This document shows, one piece after another, positions 51,436 through 62,753 of a stretch of DNA of 64,000 bases. The position numbers and the translations under genes are program-made. Source of the DNA: Paracoccaceae bacterium (GTDB lineage Bacteria > Pseudomonadota > Alphaproteobacteria > Rhodobacterales > Rhodobacteraceae); assembly GCA_004153385.1 (NCBI GenBank), contig SDAL01000001.1, positions 1,488,001 through 1,552,000 of the forward strand, written 5' to 3'. Below the pieces are notes generated by a model that was not told where the DNA came from, ran no database searches, and was given only the letters and a program-made list of their open reading frames with translations. Positions within the stretch are counted from its first letter, which is position 1. The number at the start of each line of letters is the position of its first letter.

Positions 51436-52802
51436 AACTTCGTCTTTTTCTGATCCTTACTGCCTCGACGCTGGTCGTCTGGTTATCTGCAGTCATCTGG
51501 ATCGAGCATGTCACACGTGCACAGGTCGAGAAGGTTCTTGATGCGCGGCTGATGGAGGCCGCACGCATGGTTGCCTCCCTTGTTGAGAGCGGCGGGGTGC
51601 AGCAAGAAAGGGCCCCAAGCGTGATAAAGGGGGGCCTGTCGAAGGGTCCGGGGTACAGCCAGCAGCAGTTCTGCCAGATTTGGTCGCTAAACGGTCAAAT
51701 GATAGGTCGTTCGGAAGATGCGCCCGGCGGCCAGCTTCTGGAGTTTACCCAAAGCGGGTTTCATGAGGTTACAAGTCAGGGAAAGGCGCTTAGGGTCTAT
51801 GCCATTGTTAATCCGGATCTTGGCATACAAGTCACCGTGGGTGATAGTCTGGAGATGCGCGACCGGTTGATCCATGGAGTGGTCGAGGGGCTTGCATTGC
51901 CTGCGCTGGTGGTGCTGCCCTTGATGGGAGCACTGATCTGGTGGTCGACACGGCGCGGCCTCAAGCCGCTTGACCGGCTGGCCCAGACACTTGGGAGACG
52001 TCACGTCGAGGACGCGGCACAGATCCCGACGGCGCCTGCGACGCCACGCGAAATTCAGCCGGTCCTAAGCGCTTTGAACGAACTTCTGGGGCGCCTTAAT
52101 CGCGCGCGTCAGCGCGAGAAGGACTTTGTTAGCTATGCCGCCCATGAGATGAAAACCCCCTTGGCCGGGCTGAAAATACAAGCCTATGTGGCGCGGCATA
52201 CCTTGGATGATGCGGCGCGACAAAAAGCACTTGAAGCGATCGAATACTCGGTATCGCGGACCGACCGGATGGTGAGACAGCTTCTGGATCTGGCACAGAT
52301 AGAGAACCGAAACCTCCATTTACAACAAGTCGATCTAGCGATGATTGCCCGCCAGCAGATCATCGCACTCACTGAATTGGCAGATCGTTCGGGCGTGACA
52401 TGCGAACTGGAAACCCTCGGGTCATGCCAATTGTCGAGCGACCCTTTTTTTCTAGGACTGGCACTCCGCAATCTTATCGAAAACGCCATATACGCATCCC
52501 CAAAAGACGAAAGGATAATTGTGCGCGTTGAGACCACGGCGACTTCGTTTCATATCGCGGTTATCGATCAGGGCGAGGGGCTGCCCGCAGCAATCGGCGC
52601 GAGATTGGGCGAACGCTTCCTTAGCAATGCGACGAATGTCTGCACCGGAAGCGGGCTAGGATTAGCGATTACCTTTGATGCGCTGACTATTCTGGGGTGT
52701 CAGTTAACGTTTGACCGGACACCATTGGGACACCGTGCTCATATTAGCAATGCGGATCTTTATGACCTGCCACGGGATTTTTCCTCCATGCGCGCGTCGT
52801 GA
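51426..52802 (+). CDS. QseC-like sensor histidine kinase
   Basis: A 458-residue membrane kinase. Two helices (about residues 7-27 and 155-177) enclose a periplasmic sensor domain of ~125 residues. A HAMP-like linker, the H-box YAAHEMKTPLAGLK, N-box NLIENAIYAS and G-box GSGLGLAITF follow. The last residues (FSSMRAS) read into an IS3 transposase remnant starting near 52778, so the native C-terminus was replaced or lost there. The catalytic boxes are intact, so activity may survive. The ATG lies inside the regulator gene. Confidence 0.9.
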   Translation: MSIKLRLFLILTASTLVVWLSAVIWIEHVTRAQVEKVLDARLMEAARMVASLVESGGVQQERAPSVIKGGLSKGPGYSQQQFCQIWSLNGQMIGRSEDAPGGQLLEFTQSGFHEVTSQGKALRVYAIVNPDLGIQVTVGDSLEMRDRLIHGVVEGLALPALVVLPLMGALIWWSTRRGLKPLDRLAQTLGRRHVEDAAQIPTAPATPREIQPVLSALNELLGRLNRARQREKDFVSYAAHEMKTPLAGLKIQAYVARHTLDDAARQKALEAIEYSVSRTDRMVRQLLDLAQIENRNLHLQQVDLAMIARQQIIALTELADRSGVTCELETLGSCQLSSDPFFLGLALRNLIENAIYASPKDERIIVRVETTATSFHIAVIDQGEGLPAAIGARLGERFLSNATNVCTGSGLGLAITFDALTILGCQLTFDRTPLGHRAHISNADLYDLPRDFSSMRAS

Positions 52803-52990
52803 TCACCGCCTGGGCCACCGACGGCAACACAGAATGGCCGCATTCGGCCTTGGATTACCAGACCCCGACCGACTACGCCCGAATCCTGACCACCGCAATC
52901 GCCCACCCCACTGCCCGAGAGGAACGCTCCCGCACGTCGGGCGATTTCTCAACCCGCGCCAATCGGCGTAAACAACCGCCGGGCTCCGGT
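52778..52990 (+). mobile_element. IS3-family OrfB (integrase) C-terminal fragment
   Basis: In the second frame relative to the kinase, the sequence reads FLHARVVITAWATDGNTEW, PHSALDYQTPTDYARILT, the conserved end of IS3-family OrfB transposases. Only the last 60-70 codons remain, fused onto the end of the kinase gene. The catalytic DDE residues are absent, so it is dead. Confidence 0.8.
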
Positions 52991-53335
52991 CGCGGCTGGA
53001 TGAAAGACCCGTGGCCGGTCACTATCCCTCGCGACATCAATCGAAAATTGAACCAGAACGGCCCAGCCGTCTGGGCCGCTCACCCATCGTTGGGGATGCG
53101 TACATCTTGCCGAGCGTCACAAAAGGCAAGCTGTTGGAGGCATCTGCCGCGCTGCCGAAATCAACGTTATGGAGAACCTCCCCTGCTACCTCCGGAAAAC
53201 CGCTCTCGACAAGATCGCGTCGAGGCGCTCCTCACGGGAACGAAGGTAGGTTTTTGGCGGATCTGGTAGACTTCACAGCCCGAATATGAACGATGGCCTC
53301 GCACTGACACGAGATTTATTTCTGCCCCGCGCAGC
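52991..53335. other. About 345 bp after the IS3 fragment, no gene recognised
   Basis: A plus-strand frame of 92 codons (53011-53289) has no known motif or ribosome site. The stretch separates the IS3 remnant from the HWE kinase, and may be more insertion-sequence debris. Confidence 0.35.
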
Positions 53336-54400: not shown

Positions 54401-54876
54401 TTCTTCAGGCCTTTCATGCGACAGAACATAAGTTTATGCGCGTTCTTTGATGATTGAAAGTGGGCTTGCCAGGCGTTTTTCTTCCTGCAAGATCAGTATC
54501 CCGTCATTCCACCATAAGAGGGACGTGAGATTCCTCTCCATTGACACAGTTGCAACTTGAACGCGCGCGCGCTCCACACTGTTCACCTGTAAGGCTTATT
54601 TGGCTGCCGCTAGATTGTTGTCATTGCAAGCCTTCATCGCTGAATTGCAGATTTGGCACAGTACGCCGCAGCATCAGTCGGGAGAACGATCATTAGCTTC
54701 GGGCCGTTCGCTGCGATCAACACTAAGGGCGGATTCTGGACCTTCGCTGCGGCATCGCCCAAGGACCGCTTTTGGCTTTGACTCGCCTATCCGCTCAGCG
54801 AAGAAGACGTGCGAAAAGTTACCCATCAACAGCCAATTCAATCCAAGTCCACCTTTCCGGATTGGCTTCGGAGGGA
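54401..54876. other. About 475 bp without a supported gene
   Basis: It should hold the promoter of the HWE kinase gene on the left side. A plus-strand frame at 54600-54917 is open but has no motif and runs into the helicase gene on the other strand, so I do not count it. Confidence 0.4.
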
Positions 54877-57800
54877 TCACCGACGCCGAGAGCGTGCGAA
54901 TACGCGGCGGACGGTAGCCTGCACCCCGGCATTGAGCACATAGTCATTCGCGAGGTCGGACTGGTCATACAGTCCAAACTCGTCCGGGGACCGGGCAAGC
55001 TCGTAGCCAGACGCGTCGAGCCAGATGACTTCGTCTTCACCGGCCATCGGCAGGACATTGTAGCGTTTCATGGCGCCGGTCGTTCCGGTCAGCTCGGCTT
55101 CCTCCGGCACAACCTTGGCGCGTTCCCGTTCGCGGGAAGGCAGGCTCCGTTCCCAGCCCAGAAACTGCTGGGGATCGATCAGGTCTTCGGAGGTCGGTGC
55201 GTCAATCTCCTCGCCGAGCCATTCCTCGAATGCAGGCCTAAGTGCTTCGGCTTCCTCGCGCGTCTTCGCGCGTCCCTGTGCCAACGCGAAGGCGACAAAG
55301 GGATCGAGCGTTCCCCAGCGCAGCAGCTCGCGCGCCCAGAAGCCGAACCACGGGAGCCCCGTTGTGGCCTTCCATTCGGCAAGTGAGGGAACGGCGAGCG
55401 GATCACCGGCACCAGCAGTCCATTTCTGCGCGACGACCGCGCCGATCGCGACCCCCAAGCGAAACTCCAGATTGTCGGCGACAAAACGCTGGCGGGCGCG
55501 AAGATTGCCAGCTTCGGGCACTTCGCCGCCCGGGGCGCGCATCCACCAGCTCAGTACGTCGGTCCAAGCATCGAGGATCTCACTATCGCCGACCGTATCG
55601 CGGACGCGGAAGCCGAAGCCGCGATCCTCCTTCAAGAGTTCGCCGAGGGCCTCGAACCGCTCCAGACGCTGCTCCGGGGTTTCGAGACCATACTCGGTTG
55701 CCGCCGCCAGCAGATCGACGATTGCCGGCGCGATCGCTTCAAACCGCCTGCCAACATAGGGCGAGAAGCCATATTGATAGAGCCGCCGCCGTTCGTCGGC
55801 GTCGGGGTAGATCTCCCCAATTATCGCGCGCCCGCGGCGGAGGATCGCGTCCTCGAGCCAAGCTTCCTGCGCGGCTGCGGCGACCGTGAAGGTGTTTTGC
55901 CAAAGGACAGCGAGTTTTGCTTCCGCCTGCGCCCCGTCGAGGTCGTCATCAAGCAGGCTGAGTTCTTCGAGCGCCGTCATGACGAATGCATCCAGCTCGT
56001 CGATGGTATCGGCCAGCCGGGCAGCGTCTCCGGTGGCGCCGGTCCCAGCATCGTCGCTGACTTCGCCGGGCTCAATCTGTTCGAGCCATTCAAGAAATGT
56101 CTCGTCGGTCAGATGCCCGAAATAAAGCCGCGCCTTGTTTCGTAGTTCGCCGAGTAGCATCGCGAGCGGACTGAGCGTTGCATTGTCCGCCAGCTCATCG
56201 CGCCGGAGATTCTCGCGCAACGCGGCATAGTCTGCTCGCAGGGCGTCCATCTGATTGCGCTGTGTCTGCATCTGCCCGGGTGCGGTGGTGGCGATCGTGG
56301 TGGGTAAGGCAACCAATGTTAGGCCTTCCATTCCACGCGTCGAGCCCGGCCTGCCAGCACGACCGGAGAGATTGCGGAATTCGGCCGAGGTATAGGGGGT
56401 GATGACCGGTTGCTGCTTCACGTTGTCATAGGCGCTGCGCTTGAGCGAGGTCACGAAGATGATGTCGAATGGGAGGTTGACGCCTTCGGTGAGCGTCGCG
56501 GTCGCAACGGTGATTGGACAGATTTTTCGGTCAATCAGTGCCACCATTTGCCGCCGCACTCGCTGCGGCATCTGGCCATGGCTGGTTGCTATTCCGCGAT
56601 CAAGCAGTCTCACCTCGTAGGAATCTGATCCGCAATAGTCAACGCAAGCTGCCCGGGCTTCGGCGAACAACTCACCGTTTCTTCCTTCGGGTGGCACGAA
56701 AGCCGGCAGACCCTGCCAAGCTGGCAGGTCGAAGGATTCAGCATACCACCCCATTGTTTGTTCGGGCTGCTGGGCCAGTGAGATGAGGATACGGCGTTCA
56801 GCCGCAGCGAGGTGCAGCGCCGTCCAGAGCACCGTTACCTGGTTGAAGCGGTAGAGGCTGGACCGCATCTGAGCGGGCAGCTGCGCCATCGGCGGGATGT
56901 TTAGGTTGAGGTAAACTGGGTCATCACGCCCCTGTACATAGAGCGGTTGCCCATTCATCAACTCAAGTAGCATCGTGCTGCGCCGCTCCGATGCGGTCTC
57001 GAGCACGCCAACCACTTGCCGGGTACTGCGATAGTGCGTGCCGATCGCTGATGCGTCAGCTGTGCCTTCCATCCAGCGCGCTACAGGTCCGGCGGCACCG
57101 CCAGCGACCGCGGTCAGCGCGATACGAACGATATCTGGCGCTTGGGTGAGCAAGCGAGCGACGAAGCTTTCAAGCCTAAGCGAGCGACTGCTATGATCGG
57201 CGAAGTCACTACGACCGCTTTCTGTATCCTCTGGCAGGACCTGATGCGCTTCGTCGACGATCAGGAGCTTGAGACGGCTAAGAAGCAGCGGAGCGAGATA
57301 GCGCATAAGCGCATCGGCCTTTTCGACAGTGGCGATAAGCACGGTCGGGCTGTCAGCATTCAGCCAATAGTCGGTGATGCCCCAGTCGGCGCCGCCATAA
57401 AGGCCGGTGATGATAAGATCGCGGCCGAGCTCGGAAGTCAGTTTGGCTTCGACCTCACCAGCGAGCGCACGGGAAGGGACGAGGTACAGGGCCAGTGGCA
57501 CGACCTCGCCGTGATCGCGCAGCAGTAGTTCCTTCACGAGGCCGAGATTGGCGACGAGCGTCTTGCCCGAACCGGTCGGCGTGCAGAGCGCGAAGGATGA
57601 GTTTTCGAGAAGGCGGGTGAGACCAGCGCGCTGCGACGACCATAATATGCCGCGGCCGCGCGAGAACTGTGCACGAGCAAAGGCCAGCAAGCGAGACATG
57701 CGCCTGGGATTGAGTTCGCCAAGGGCACGGGCCGAACGATAGATGCTGGCGTCGGTAAACCGTTCGGCAACTTGTCGCAACAAGCTGATGAGCAGCGAAA

Positions 57801-58500
57801 CATCGTCGCTGAAAGTGCGCACGGCCATAGAATCGAGCGCCTTGAGCTTCGCAGCGGCCTTGGCGAGGCGGTCATCGGCCCCACGCCGGATCGAATCCGC
57901 AAAAAGGCCCAACGCGCGAATGAGTTCGACCGTGAAATACCAGCTAAGCCGGTCATCCCTGTCTTCTTCGAGGATACGGAGGGAAGAGCCAGGAGCCCTC
58001 AGATCGCCATTTTGACCCCAGAAAGCCATGGTATGGAGGAGCACTGCGTCGAAATCGCCTTGGATAAACGCGGCGAAAAGCTTTGGGCCGTCTTCCTCGA
58101 GATCCAATTGGCCGAGAAGACCAGATGCCATTGCGGTCAGACCTCCGAGCTGGAAAGCGGCGCCGGCAAGTAGTTCGACCGGCGCGATCGTTCGAACGTC
58201 GTCTTCCGAGCGCGCCAGCCATTCGAGGAGCTCACCGGCCCGCCGGTAGCAATCGACGGCGCGACGCGATTGATGTCCCTCGATCTCTACGAAGATCTCG
58301 GCTGCCTGCAGCAGGCTTCGCGCATCTGCCAGCTGACCTTCGGAATCGCTGCGGTTCCAGCCGATCGTGTCGACCTGCCAGCCGATCTGTAGGCAACGGA
58401 CATAGGAGCGCGCCTGATTGGCGGACAATTCGTTCTCCAACGCGAGCCTGGTGCGGGCCCCATTGGCGATCTCGAGCCTCTGCGGGTCGTTTTCCGGCAT
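54877..58500 (-). CDS. hamB: DEAD/DEAH helicase, HamB-like (Hachiman-type anti-phage defence)
   Basis: A 1207-residue superfamily 2 helicase of the Ski2/Hel308-like group. An N-terminal helical region of about 280 residues has no motif I know. Walker A is TPTGSGKT (307-314), the DEAH box is at 416-419, motif III is ALTAV (461-465), motif V ATATLTEGVNLP (666-677), and motif VI GRAGRPG (713-719). About 480 further residues have no clear domain. The start overlaps the nuclease gene by one base (TGATG), so the two are translated together. The nuclease-then-helicase order matches HamA-HamB; the assignment is by architecture. Confidence 0.75.
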   Translation of the reverse strand: MPENDPQRLEIANGARTRLALENELSANQARSYVRCLQIGWQVDTIGWNRSDSEGQLADARSLLQAAEIFVEIEGHQSRRAVDCYRRAGELLEWLARSEDDVRTIAPVELLAGAAFQLGGLTAMASGLLGQLDLEEDGPKLFAAFIQGDFDAVLLHTMAFWGQNGDLRAPGSSLRILEEDRDDRLSWYFTVELIRALGLFADSIRRGADDRLAKAAAKLKALDSMAVRTFSDDVSLLISLLRQVAERFTDASIYRSARALGELNPRRMSRLLAFARAQFSRGRGILWSSQRAGLTRLLENSSFALCTPTGSGKTLVANLGLVKELLLRDHGEVVPLALYLVPSRALAGEVEAKLTSELGRDLIITGLYGGADWGITDYWLNADSPTVLIATVEKADALMRYLAPLLLSRLKLLIVDEAHQVLPEDTESGRSDFADHSSRSLRLESFVARLLTQAPDIVRIALTAVAGGAAGPVARWMEGTADASAIGTHYRSTRQVVGVLETASERRSTMLLELMNGQPLYVQGRDDPVYLNLNIPPMAQLPAQMRSSLYRFNQVTVLWTALHLAAAERRILISLAQQPEQTMGWYAESFDLPAWQGLPAFVPPEGRNGELFAEARAACVDYCGSDSYEVRLLDRGIATSHGQMPQRVRRQMVALIDRKICPITVATATLTEGVNLPFDIIFVTSLKRSAYDNVKQQPVITPYTSAEFRNLSGRAGRPGSTRGMEGLTLVALPTTIATTAPGQMQTQRNQMDALRADYAALRENLRRDELADNATLSPLAMLLGELRNKARLYFGHLTDETFLEWLEQIEPGEVSDDAGTGATGDAARLADTIDELDAFVMTALEELSLLDDDLDGAQAEAKLAVLWQNTFTVAAAAQEAWLEDAILRRGRAIIGEIYPDADERRRLYQYGFSPYVGRRFEAIAPAIVDLLAAATEYGLETPEQRLERFEALGELLKEDRGFGFRVRDTVGDSEILDAWTDVLSWWMRAPGGEVPEAGNLRARQRFVADNLEFRLGVAIGAVVAQKWTAGAGDPLAVPSLAEWKATTGLPWFGFWARELLRWGTLDPFVAFALAQGRAKTREEAEALRPAFEEWLGEEIDAPTSEDLIDPQQFLGWERSLPSRERERAKVVPEEAELTGTTGAMKRYNVLPMAGEDEVIWLDASGYELARSPDEFGLYDQSDLANDYVLNAGVQATVRRVFARSRRR

Positions 58501-59453
58501 CAGGTGGCCCAGAGTGCGTCATAGACGCCGTCGATTAGCATTTCACCGTCATTCAGAATGAGTTCAACCACCTGCAGGTCGTGAGGTGCAGTATAATTTC
58601 CGGGCACTTCCTCCCTAGGGATGAGCGGATGCTTGGACTTCCGACTCGGCGCATCACCACCCGAAATCATGATGAGGTTGGTGCGCGGCAATGGCTCGGC
58701 ATTCCTGACCACCAACACTCGATCGAGTTTCGCGATCGCGGCGGAATAGCCGTCGGGATCGATTTCGCGCAACAGGCGCTGCAACTGCCGAAGCCCGTGC
58801 GGGGCTGGAATATCGCTATTGATCTGGAACCAGATCCCTTTCCCATCATGCTCGCGCTCGCCTGTTTCCTTGTTTTTCTTCTTCTCGCCGTACATCAGAT
58901 CGGCGACAACGGCCGGCTGAAGCTTCTTTCGCCATTTGGCTTCACCAGCGATGAAGCGCTCTATGTCACCATCTTCATTGAGTGCGAGGCCAATGAAGTC
59001 AGAGCCACGCCTCCCATAGACTTGTCGCTTTCGCTCTTCATCCCGCGCGAGTGCGAACAGATAGGCTTCCGCGTCCTCATGAAATCGGAAAAGGAACACC
59101 GGGATCGTCCACTCGTGCTTGCCGATGTATTCGAACCCTTCAGTAAGCATACCAGCCATTACTTCTCCAAACAGTCCACGTCGCGTGATCGACGGCAAAC
59201 AGGTCGGATAGGTGATATGCGGTTCGGGCGCATCGGCATCGGGATGAAGCTCAATACCCATCTGCTCATGAAAAAATTCGCGAGCGTCGGCATGAGCGGA
59301 TTCGAAATAGGGGACTAAATCTGAGATCATGTCGTCATCGCAGTCGCAATCTTGCTCGAGCAACAAGTGCCCGTAGCTACCGTCTTCACTTGGATACGCG
59401 GTGAGCCAGCGTGCCAGCGCAGCTTTCGGTGGTGGGCAATCGTGCAAGGTCAA
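58500..59453 (-). CDS. hamA: PD-(D/E)xK nuclease, HamA-like (DUF1837-type; Hachiman defence)
   Basis: A 317-residue protein with no signal or membrane segment. A nuclease core can be read: a helix with RRGLFGEVMAGML (Glu at 97), then RRGSDFIGLAL with Asp152, and FIAGEAKWR with Glu171 and Lys173, the D...ExK pattern. HamA of Hachiman is a DUF1837 nuclease that its helicase partner keeps in check until phage infection. The start is TTG at 59453, chosen because AAGGAG lies seven bases upstream and no ATG precedes it. The N-terminal ~75 residues are acidic and of unknown role. Membership of DUF1837 needs a profile search. Confidence 0.7.
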   Translation of the reverse strand: MTLHDCPPPKAALARWLTAYPSEDGSYGHLLLEQDCDCDDDMISDLVPYFESAHADAREFFHEQMGIELHPDADAPEPHITYPTCLPSITRRGLFGEVMAGMLTEGFEYIGKHEWTIPVFLFRFHEDAEAYLFALARDEERKRQVYGRRGSDFIGLALNEDGDIERFIAGEAKWRKKLQPAVVADLMYGEKKKNKETGEREHDGKGIWFQINSDIPAPHGLRQLQRLLREIDPDGYSAAIAKLDRVLVVRNAEPLPRTNLIMISGGDAPSRKSKHPLIPREEVPGNYTAPHDLQVVELILNDGEMLIDGVYDALWAT

Positions 59454-59689
59454 TGTTGAACTCCTTGCGCAATGAATATGGGACTTGCGCGATCGTATGA
59501 AGCCTTAATGTTGTTGATTTTCTCCGAAGCGACCAAGATTGGAGCTTGAAGCAGACATTTGATTGGAGTTGGCCGAAAGGCGGTTCAGGGGCGTCTCTGC
59601 CGGGCAGGTCCACTGACCTTGGCATGCTGCACGTCACGGCGCCGCAGGTCTGCTTCGAGCCCGAGACAGGCACTCTTCTTCTAACAAGA

Positions 59690-60727
59690 TCAGCGACGAC
59701 GACGCTTCAAGCGATAGCCACTCCGTCGCCGCAGTAGGCCACGCTCGAAAAGCTTATCGTGAAGCAGCGTTGTAAGACGATCTTGCCATCCATCACTGTG
59801 TAGTACACGATCAAAGTGCGCATCCTGATCGCGAAGAAGATCCAGCCGAGACCGTTGCGACGCCTCATCCCAATCTTGATATAGCAAGTAAATTGCGTTG
59901 CCGTATTTGAGGTTCTCAAAAACGACAAAGTCGTCGGAAAATTTCGCGCCAAAATACGAGCCAAAGCCACCTTGAGCTTTAATGTAGGCTTCCGGCTCGA
60001 ACTCCTCAAACATTTGTACCCGCTCACGAACATGCTTCTCAAAGTCAGGGGCGTTCGTCAGATGCGCCGATCCCATCAAGCGAGCAACAACTTCGTCAGC
60101 GGTTCCTGGTGGGAAAATCTCCCAGTCGAGAATGACGGTTGAAATGTAATCGTCGTGCGTGGCCTCACTCGCGAATATCCCAGTCACGCCGGTATTCTCT
60201 TGCAGAAGATTAATAGTCCAAAGTAGCATCAAGTCGAACTCAGAAAAGCCCCGGCTAATTATCGGCGCGACAGCGAATTTGACTAACACCAGATCGCCGC
60301 CTTTGTCTTCAAGCACACTCGCTTCGATGGTCATGCCTTGAGGTTCGAAAATCTGGTGCTGGTAGACCTCCTTAGTCCAAGAGCGCATGGTCCAGCCGTT
60401 GCGCGCGCCATCCCCAAAGTTGGGTGACTCGAAGGACCAGGTTTTCTGGACCTTCGGCCAATCTTCGCGCTTAAGGTCCCAGCCGCGCGCGTTTCTCTCT
60501 GACCATTTACCAGCGTCGGCGGGAGGCTGGGTTGGGCCAGCTGCAATGATCGAGGAGCCATTCGTTGTTAATCCAACGTGACTATAGCGCCCTGCTTCAA
60601 CATCGCTACGGCTAATCTTCTTGGTCGCAGAGACGACAAGAAGGTCGCTGTCGATATCATTTAATGCGTTTTCAATAGATAGCGGGACTTTGCGGTAATT
60701 GCTCTTCCAAGGAAAACGCTTCGTCAT
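59690..60727 (-). CDS. Unknown protein next to the HamAB-like genes
   Basis: A 345-residue soluble protein that I do not recognise. It has a mixed charged composition, aromatic-rich segments (WSERNARGWDLKREDWPK) and a very basic C-terminus ending in a run of arginines, which could bind nucleic acid. The ATG at 60727 is the best start; a TTG lies 12 bp earlier. It is on the same strand as the nuclease and helicase, 236 bp upstream of them, so it may be a third component or a separate defence gene. No catalytic motif stands out. Confidence 0.7.
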   Translation of the reverse strand: MTKRFPWKSNYRKVPLSIENALNDIDSDLLVVSATKKISRSDVEAGRYSHVGLTTNGSSIIAAGPTQPPADAGKWSERNARGWDLKREDWPKVQKTWSFESPNFGDGARNGWTMRSWTKEVYQHQIFEPQGMTIEASVLEDKGGDLVLVKFAVAPIISRGFSEFDLMLLWTINLLQENTGVTGIFASEATHDDYISTVILDWEIFPPGTADEVVARLMGSAHLTNAPDFEKHVRERVQMFEEFEPEAYIKAQGGFGSYFGAKFSDDFVVFENLKYGNAIYLLYQDWDEASQRSRLDLLRDQDAHFDRVLHSDGWQDRLTTLLHDKLFERGLLRRRSGYRLKRRRR

Positions 60728-60961
60728 TGTCTGTCCCAACTATCAAAAAGATAGCATACGAGGAGCCGGAAGGAGCTGGCAATACCCGCGCGCCAACATT
60801 TTCTAAGGCAAGCCAGCAGACGATGTATGACTTTGCCAGATGTGGCCGCTTCGCCCGCTCTGCTGACTTTGGACTGCCAAACGATGCCTTGGATGACCTC
60901 TTCGGGGCGCTGCGCTGCGGCGTTAGTGATCCAAGCGAATGTTCGAGAAGGGCCGAAAGGG

Positions 60962-62521
60962 TCAAATTTTGGTTGTTGCGTAGGCGCTCACGTCCCCGCG
61001 CCAGTAGATCCGGCTTAGGTCATAGGGCATCGCCAACAGGGCCACATTGGCATTTCTAAGTTTCATCGAAAGTGCGCCTTGTGGGCGCTGCACGAGCTCT
61101 GCGAACTCGCCCAAGGAAATAAAGGTCTCTCGGAAACGCGTCAGACTGTCAGCGGTTACTACAGTCGCCCCTCGGCGGTAGAGCTCTGAGGTATCCACGC
61201 CGCACAACATTCCATGTTGAATCAAATACCCTACTGTTTTGGCCGTCACTCTAAACTGCCCGGCGGCGTCACCGATGGATAGGCGGCTGTCCCCTGCCGC
61301 ATTGATTTCGTCCGAAACAAATGTTCTGGATTTTTCACCTTCAGATGAACGCTTTGCGTTTCGAAAGAACTTCTTCTCGCGCTCGTAGGCGTCGAGCATT
61401 TGCTGGGTTACAAAATTCATTGGTACGATACCGCCGCTAGCGTGACGCTTTGCGAGACCTCGGCAAATCAGATCCTCCGCATTGCGCTTGGCGAGCCCCT
61501 TCAGCGAAACCGACTTCTGTGGGTTCGATGAAGCGATTCCCTTCGAAGGCACGCCAAGCACCAGCACCCCTCTTCTGACCGAAATATTGTCGAAGACGTG
61601 CCGCCGCACAACGTCACGCAGGGGCTCGAATTCATCGCCGAGGCTTCGGCTCTTCAGCCACGCCATCCAAGGGCCAAAGAGTCGACCGAAGAACCTGCCG
61701 TCCACACCGTCCACACGAGCCATCGCAATTAAGCACTCGGAAAGGGCATCAGGACCATCTTTCAGTATGTCGTATCCCAAGGCACCATAGATCATCCAGT
61801 CTGGCTCACTGTGCCCCGCCAGCGCAGCATCTGGCCCCCTTGCGATACGCAGGCCCAGCACTTCACATGCGCGCGACGCCACGTTGAGCTCGAGACGGTC
61901 GATCCATCGGTCGCCCCGCCCGCTCAGGATGCGGTTCGAAATATACGCCTCGAAAGGGCTGGGGGGTGCCTTGACCACCGGCTGATCCAGAATCCAACCG
62001 TGGTGTTTTCGCAGCTGCGCCGCGAAGTCTCTGGCGTCCTTGTGGAGTTTCTCGGCCGGAAAGCTGATGAGCATGCAGTTGTGTTCCGGGCAGCTCCTGA
62101 TCGACGAGAATTTCCATTGGAGGCGACGCGGCACGCGCCACGACTCCGATGCTGACGGCATCTCGGACCGTATGCACTCCGGACAGACGCGGATGCGCCT
62201 GCGCTGAAAGCTCTGAAGGGAGGCGAATTCATCCCGCAGACGGAAATGGCCCTTGCCGAGGTGGCGGACTGAAACCCATTCCAACGCAGCCGCATCGCAC
62301 CCGGCCAGCTGTGCCAATTGTTCGATCGCGACCTTCTCCCCGCGGAACAGGGGATCGATCGGAAAGGCAATATCGCCGCAAAACCTCTGCATCGAAACTG
62401 CGCCGCCCCTGGCCGCAAGCCGCGACAGCAAAGACGATGCCGGCTCGAACGCGGCATGCGGCACAGTCAGCGGTAACTGCGGGAAGTTCGTTCCGGGAGT
62501 GGCAGGCAGACTTTTGACCAA
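60962..62521 (-). CDS. tniQ: TniQ-family protein (orphan)
   Basis: A 519-residue protein with the TniQ domain in its first ~230 residues: LPLTVPHAAFEPASSLLSRL, then GKGHFRLRD, and zinc-ribbon cysteines in RVCPECIRSE and RSCPEHN. The rest resembles the second half of long TniQ proteins, with a helix-turn-helix-like segment (SIGDAAGQFRVTAKTVGYLI). TniQ selects target sites for Tn7-like transposons, but no tnsA, tnsB or tnsC is present here, so it is an orphan. The start at TTG 62521 is uncertain; a GTG about 20 codons later is possible. A broken paralogue lies at 46385-47080. Confidence 0.82.
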   Translation of the reverse strand: MVKSLPATPGTNFPQLPLTVPHAAFEPASSLLSRLAARGGAVSMQRFCGDIAFPIDPLFRGEKVAIEQLAQLAGCDAAALEWVSVRHLGKGHFRLRDEFASLQSFQRRRIRVCPECIRSEMPSASESWRVPRRLQWKFSSIRSCPEHNCMLISFPAEKLHKDARDFAAQLRKHHGWILDQPVVKAPPSPFEAYISNRILSGRGDRWIDRLELNVASRACEVLGLRIARGPDAALAGHSEPDWMIYGALGYDILKDGPDALSECLIAMARVDGVDGRFFGRLFGPWMAWLKSRSLGDEFEPLRDVVRRHVFDNISVRRGVLVLGVPSKGIASSNPQKSVSLKGLAKRNAEDLICRGLAKRHASGGIVPMNFVTQQMLDAYEREKKFFRNAKRSSEGEKSRTFVSDEINAAGDSRLSIGDAAGQFRVTAKTVGYLIQHGMLCGVDTSELYRRGATVVTADSLTRFRETFISLGEFAELVQRPQGALSMKLRNANVALLAMPYDLSRIYWRGDVSAYATTKI

Positions 62522-62676: not shown

Positions 62677-62753
62677 TGGCGGACCCGAGAGGATTCGAAC
62701 CCCTGGCCCCTTGATTCGTAGTCAAGTGCTCTATCCAGCTGAGCTACGGGTCC
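62677..62753 (-). tRNA. tRNA-Arg (anticodon ACG)
   Basis: The 77-nt cloverleaf is complete and encodes its own CCA. The acceptor arms are GGACCCG (from 62753) and CGGGTCC (ending 62681), with discriminator G and CCA at 62679-62677. The D-arm is GCTCAGCTGGATAGAGC, the anticodon arm CTTGA-CTACGAA-TCAAG, and the T-arm AGGGG-TTCGAAT-CCTCT. Its 3' end faces the accessory island, the usual arrangement for island insertion at a tRNA. Confidence 0.96.

Follow-up and report, generated by a model that had tools for sequence, protein, structure and literature searches.

A putative Hachiman (HamAB) gene pair of a divergent lineage in a Paracoccaceae genome

The nuclease-helicase gene pair

The window analyzed here is a stretch of 64,000 nucleotides from a Paracoccaceae bacterium (assembly GCA_004153385.1, contig SDAL01000001.1, positions 1,488,001 to 1,552,000), and its subject is a pair of minus-strand genes that probably encode a Hachiman (HamAB) system. 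The hamA-like gene (58500..59453) starts with TTG, 7 bases behind an AAGGAG sequence, and encodes a 317-residue protein, a predicted PD-(D/E)xK nuclease. The hamB-like gene (54877..58500) starts with ATG and encodes a Ski2-like DEAH helicase of 1207 residues. The stop codon of the former and the start codon of the latter have a single minus-strand base in common at 58500 (CTGATG); the one-base overlap and the HamA-HamB order described by the first-pass annotation are both found in the open reading frames (ORFs) and their coordinates. The nuclease carries D152 and, further on, G170-E171-A172-K173, and the helicase carries Walker A at residues 307-314 (TPTGSGKT), DEAH at 416-419 and motif VI at about 710-719.

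At an expectation value (E) of 0.1, the HamA models are the only PADLOC models that match the nuclease, with E 1.3e-4 and 4.8e-4 across about 40 residues. The same weak similarity recurs throughout the family, as the HamA model PDLC00159 matches all 20 members and PDLC00155 matches 16 of the 20. In the alignment of the window nuclease with 19 others of 46-93% identity to it (alignment A1, where the residue numbering is 2 lower), the annotated motif residues D152, E171 and K173 are invariant in 20/20 sequences, as they are in 7/7 of another alignment (A6). Two distant relatives (L025 and L044), which share 26-28% identity with the window nuclease and match the PADLOC HamA models weakly, keep the D and the E-A-K, with leucine replacing the glycine before the glutamate (LEAK).

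The comparison with HamA of known structure points in the same direction. Among 177,635 sequences of the Protein Data Bank (PDB), the family profile of the nuclease found two matches, the first of which is HamA (8vx9_A), and the D-GEAK segment is in register with it, placing E171 and K173 on HamA E138 and K140. Joint mutation of E138 and K140 abolished the defence conferred by ECOR31 Hachiman (PMC12278908). The profile-profile alignment with two ECOR31-type HamA sequences (L051 and L053) yields E 2.2e-7 over 183 columns, with a score of 55.7 versus 23.4 or less for 60 column shuffles and 16.8 for the reversed alignment. L053 itself matches HamA 8vx9_A at E 4.1e-85, and the alignment with nine pooled HamA sequences yields E 1.9e-6. 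The comparison with HamA profiles that the first-pass annotation had proposed therefore comes out positive with PADLOC and with ECOR31-type HamA, while the Pfam model stays silent. We identify the nuclease as a strongly diverged HamA with a predicted PD-(D/E)xK fold.

For the helicase, the best PADLOC match is HamB (PDLC00174, E 8.2e-43, residues 62-1028), in agreement with the proposed comparison. When a profile of 17 helicase sequences was used, HamB 8vx9_B came first of the 31 PDB matches listed (E 6.8e-38, residues 57-1028), and Walker A, DEAH and motif VI are unchanged in all 17. Judged by its sequence, the window helicase is HamB. Since the profile alignment spans residues 57-1028, the region before residue 286 corresponds to HamB's own N-terminal region; in ECOR31 HamB, an N-terminal helical bundle contributes to HamA binding (PMC12278908). 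About 280 N-terminal and 480 C-terminal residues had been described as extra and of unexplained role, and most of them thus align with HamB of the solved structure; the description fits the last ~180 residues, for which the profile alignment, ending at 1028, offers no counterpart in HamB. In a tree of 32 HamB sequences, the window lineage clusters with the ECOR31-type rows with a support of 99/96, at a point where long branches meet; the tree is given little weight for its distant rows, which stand on long branches.

Several results weigh against the assignment of the pair to Hachiman. The nuclease has no match at E 0.1 in Pfam, including the HamA model PF08878, or in NCBIfam, and the source genome contains no match to PF08878 at E 0.001. 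The PDB match of the nuclease profile to HamA is non-significant when taken alone (E 0.15), and so is the alignment with six other, less similar HamA sequences that Pfam does recognize (hhalign E 0.033, probability 1.6); therefore, the significance of the profile match depends on the ECOR31-type HamA. The AlphaFold2 model of the nuclease, calculated from 7 sequences, has a mean predicted local distance difference test score (pLDDT) of 39.1 and is not used as fold evidence. With the single window helicase as query, the Ski2-type structure 2va8 (2.4e-16) outscores HamB 8vx9_B, which is second in the PDB (6.2e-14, residues 186-728).

These results might suggest a separate nuclease-helicase system that merely resembles Hachiman, for example PDC-M23, and that recruited its nuclease independently. 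The nuclease falls below the Pfam HamA model, and the helicase also matches the PADLOC model PDC-M23B (E 4.2e-24). However, HamB scores far better along residues 62-1028, the nuclease matches no models other than HamA in PADLOC at E 0.1, and its motifs are in register with ECOR31-type HamA, so that this explanation seems to be improbable. From the PADLOC matches, the profile-profile alignment, the motif register and the PDB match to HamB, which bear out the Hachiman-like pair proposed by the first-pass annotation, we conclude that the two genes likely form a Hachiman (HamAB) system belonging to a divergent lineage, with a probability of roughly 0.88.

Conservation of the pair and the upstream gene

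We examined 26 loci, including the window and excluding a nuclease remnant in one genome (G273). HamA adjoins HamB in all 26; in L044 and L060, HamB is split into two. The loci were found by searching with the nuclease, so the count is silent on HamB without the nuclease. They are also partly non-independent, since the window, L001 and L002 form one near-identical group, and L018 and L021 another.

The pair is part of a DNA block (54727..59593, given without strand) that recurs in other genomes in other surroundings. Across it, the window shares 82-99% identity with L001-L004 and L020. The block is composed of both genes and about 140-150 bp on each flank. Its downstream edge falls at 54725-54739 in five of the six loci compared, and its upstream edge at 59585-59593 in three of the six; in the others, the similarity ends nearer the genes. 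In a clustering of ORFs with a simple ORF choice, each flanking family is confined to at most 4 loci of the 26. The nuclease itself showed up in 25 of them, another ORF having been picked in L059, where the nuclease is present.

The position of the block bears on the minus-strand ORF that lies upstream of the pair (59690..60739), which encodes a protein of an unnamed family with 349 residues counted from TTG. It had been described as a same-strand protein of 345 residues with an arginine-rich tail, and this is what is found when counting starts from the ATG at 60727; the C-terminus reads RLKRRRR. It had also been put forward as a candidate third gene of the module. The protein could then be a sensor, adaptor or regulator acting with the pair, analogous to HamC (DUF3223), the third gene that defines Hachiman type II in PADLOC (PMC8565338), and its location on the same strand, 236 bases before the start of the nuclease gene, would suit such a role. 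However, none of the remaining 25 loci contains the gene; the upstream sequence in view exceeds 2.5 kb in all of them but L001, L062 and L063 (22 loci). The gene also lies outside the shared block. Furthermore, no HamA or HamB of the window kind is found in the stretches around 12 relatives of the protein, one of which stands beside Gabija and one beside PDC-M18, and the window protein has no Pfam match and is thus unrecognized as DUF3223. A three-gene system is very unlikely, and the distribution of the gene together with its position outside the block speaks against its being part of the pair. It is probably a separate passenger of the variable region.

Both genes of the pair are under purifying selection. 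The ratio of nonsynonymous to synonymous substitution rates (dN/dS) is 0.085-0.137 for both genes in comparisons of the window with L003, L004 and L020, implying that the pair is conserved beyond chance. In the comparison with the near-identical L002, where changes are few, dN/dS is 0.16 for hamB and 0.48 for hamA, the latter being a less favorable value. A decayed or non-functional pair that an island has retained by chance is hardly credible. Damaged relatives do exist: IS630 splits HamB in L060, L044 encodes HamB as two fragments, and G273 retains a stop-containing nuclease remnant. The window copy, in contrast, has uninterrupted reading frames, complete motifs and the low ratios given above.

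The nuclease matches 5 of 292 genomes of the order, a count that includes the source, the remnant in G273 and a distant match in G290, and 8 of 394 genomes of the family, again including the source and from a sample that overlaps the former. Of 196 genomes of the order, 8 have a HamA of the PF08878 type, and in one of the eight (G149) it occurs alongside the window lineage. The nuclease is also present in 25 of 72,556 plasmid records, 11 of which were taken into the locus comparison. The ten genera named among the plasmid matches listed are all alphaproteobacterial, and three more genera stand outside those listed. In 20 of 25 plasmid matches listed, the nuclease is annotated as 'aminotransferase', as a hypothetical protein or not at all. 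No match was found in 50,697 phage records. In viral contigs, the nuclease alignment confirmed 2 loci of 12 candidates, and the search with the single nuclease protein left none of its 5 candidates standing.

Since the Pfam HamA model misses the nuclease and the plasmid records listed call it 'aminotransferase' or hypothetical, counts of Hachiman in alphaproteobacteria and on their plasmids may be too low. A profile built from the 20 sequences of alignment A1 would detect the lineage. The lineage also offers a natural, far-diverged comparison for finding out on which HamA residues control by the helicase depends.

The 349-residue family and the genomic surroundings

The 12 relatives of the 349-residue protein (L026, L027, L037-L040 and L064-L069) comprise both of the two found besides the source among the 292 genomes, 4 of 11 from plasmid records and 6 from viral contigs. 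The Gabija pair is next to L038, and PDC-M18A and PDC-M18B are next to L067. In L067 (6401-8978), the gene overlaps the PDC-M18B match, which follows the PDC-M18A match; this is possibly a three-gene set with PDC-M18. L068 (6608-8951) has the same arrangement judging by ORFs alone. By eye, the ORF next to the gene in L064, L067 and L068 resembles an integrase, no family search having been made for it.

Conserved stretches of the family lie around NFGD, NLLQENTG and FENLxYGNALY. Searches of the window protein against PADLOC, Pfam, NCBIfam and PHROGs were all negative. A Pfam search with seven members gave two weak, chance-like matches (E 0.035 and 0.2, one member each), and a PDB search with the family profile yielded no hit at E 10. 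The structure model has a mean pLDDT of 77.8, and none of the 684 PDB matches that Foldseek listed for it reaches E 0.001. A viral Foldseek match at 6.7e-4 was counted as no match, its template-modelling (TM) scores being 0.13-0.14. In viral contigs, 6 of 69 candidates held up with the family alignment and 0 of 4 with the single protein, and the phage records gave one weak match. The gene is perhaps itself a defence gene, and the family is a new candidate for a single-gene defence protein.

Further upstream, the window contains a TniQ-family gene (60962..62521; 519 residues, Pfam TniQ E 2.6e-15) and a tRNA-Arg gene (62677..62753). The similarity of the window to all three congeners compared, over 16-18 kb, reaches the 3' end of the tRNA and stops there, and therefore the set sits in a region that is variable within the genus. 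The island next to a tRNA that the first-pass annotation described is thus seen as far as the tRNA and the variability are concerned, with the TniQ-family gene separating the tRNA from the set. A search of the window for another copy of the tRNA end gave no result, and no transposase is among the six window proteins scanned. The TniQ-family protein also shows a sub-threshold MerR match near residue 415.

A dispersed repeat of ~50 bp (window 54692-54756) spans the point where the block ends downstream. The source genome (G000) contains additional copies at C1:908222, C1:901957, C1:1286231, C3:45057 and C1:661794; L080 has three copies within 300 bp, and partial copies follow hamB in L001, L002, L003 and L020. 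A site-specific cassette at the block edge was considered and dropped because the edge repeat has these further copies, and we claim no integration mechanism. The interval between the hamA-like gene and the 349-residue gene (~59574-59662) has relatives at C1:905971-906058 and C3:56423-56492 of the source genome, a few kilobases from copies of the ~50-bp repeat. Another repeat of ~240 bp (52786-53029), perhaps an insertion-sequence remnant, has five further copies in the source genome and one in a congener, at 81-91% identity.

Proposed working and relation to known systems

By homology with ECOR31 HamAB (PMC12278908), HamB would bind the nuclease via its N-terminal helical region and patrol DNA, keeping HamA in check as long as the DNA scanned is intact. 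A free single-stranded end or DNA damaged by infection would then trigger ATP hydrolysis by HamB (PMC12278908). The activated HamA would cut phage and host DNA alike, and the infection would end along with the cell. For this locus, we infer from the analogy every step past the presence and conservation of the genes and motifs.

As far as sequence comparison goes, the pair represents a divergent HamA lineage inside Hachiman. The lineage is undescribed in those titles and beginnings of abstracts that were listed for Hachiman, its subtypes, DUF1837 and alphaproteobacteria, and it may appear unnamed in the HamA trees of PMC12278908 or PMC12799240, whose supplements were outside the search. We tentatively combine two proposals: an alphaproteobacterial Hachiman lineage in which the N-terminal part of HamA and an insertion may alter activation or target, and a widespread, solitary 349-residue family that is a possible new single-gene anti-phage protein. 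The chance that both hold together seems to us somewhat short of even.

In comparison with ECOR31 Hachiman (8vx9; PMC12278908), the order of nuclease gene and helicase gene is the same, HamB is of similar length (1174 residues there, 1207 here) and aligns over window residues 57-1028, and the D-E(x)K motif of HamA is in register. The window nuclease differs in having 317 residues instead of 259, in a conserved N-terminal part of its own lineage (YFESAHxDAR), and in being missed by the Pfam HamA model; relative to L051 HamA, the spacing of the GE motif and the catalytic Asp is ~20 residues longer in the lineage. The helicase has DEAH, whereas DEGH is reported for ECOR31 HamB (PMC12278908).

The new Hachiman subtype that had been suggested finds partial support in a HamA lineage that escapes the Pfam HamA model, but it does not correspond to PADLOC type II. 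Type II (PMC8565338) resembles the window in having an extra gene alongside hamAB; the window neighbour, in contrast, has no Pfam family match and is not retained in other loci. No HamC (DUF3223) was found beside hamAB, as the upstream neighbour has no Pfam match and the TniQ-family gene and the two nearest kinases belong to other families. HamMAB shares the HamA-HamB core, but there HamA carries a fused protease and has mostly lost D-GEXK, and a gene for an MBL-type nuclease lies upstream (PMC12799240); the window nuclease keeps D-GEAK, and neither it nor the upstream ORF contains a Pfam domain of the protease or MBL kind or any other. AbpAB, called a Hachiman variant, likewise combines a HamA-like protein with a helicase, but AbpA reportedly carries a HamA site that is inactive, together with an N-terminal fusion (PMC12278908), while the active-site residues are intact in the 317-residue window protein. 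The PADLOC candidate PDC-M23 resembles the pair in its helicase, and differs in that the HamB model fits this helicase far better and the nuclease has no PDC-M23 match. Going by published descriptions, the lineage differs from PADLOC type II, HamMAB and AbpAB.

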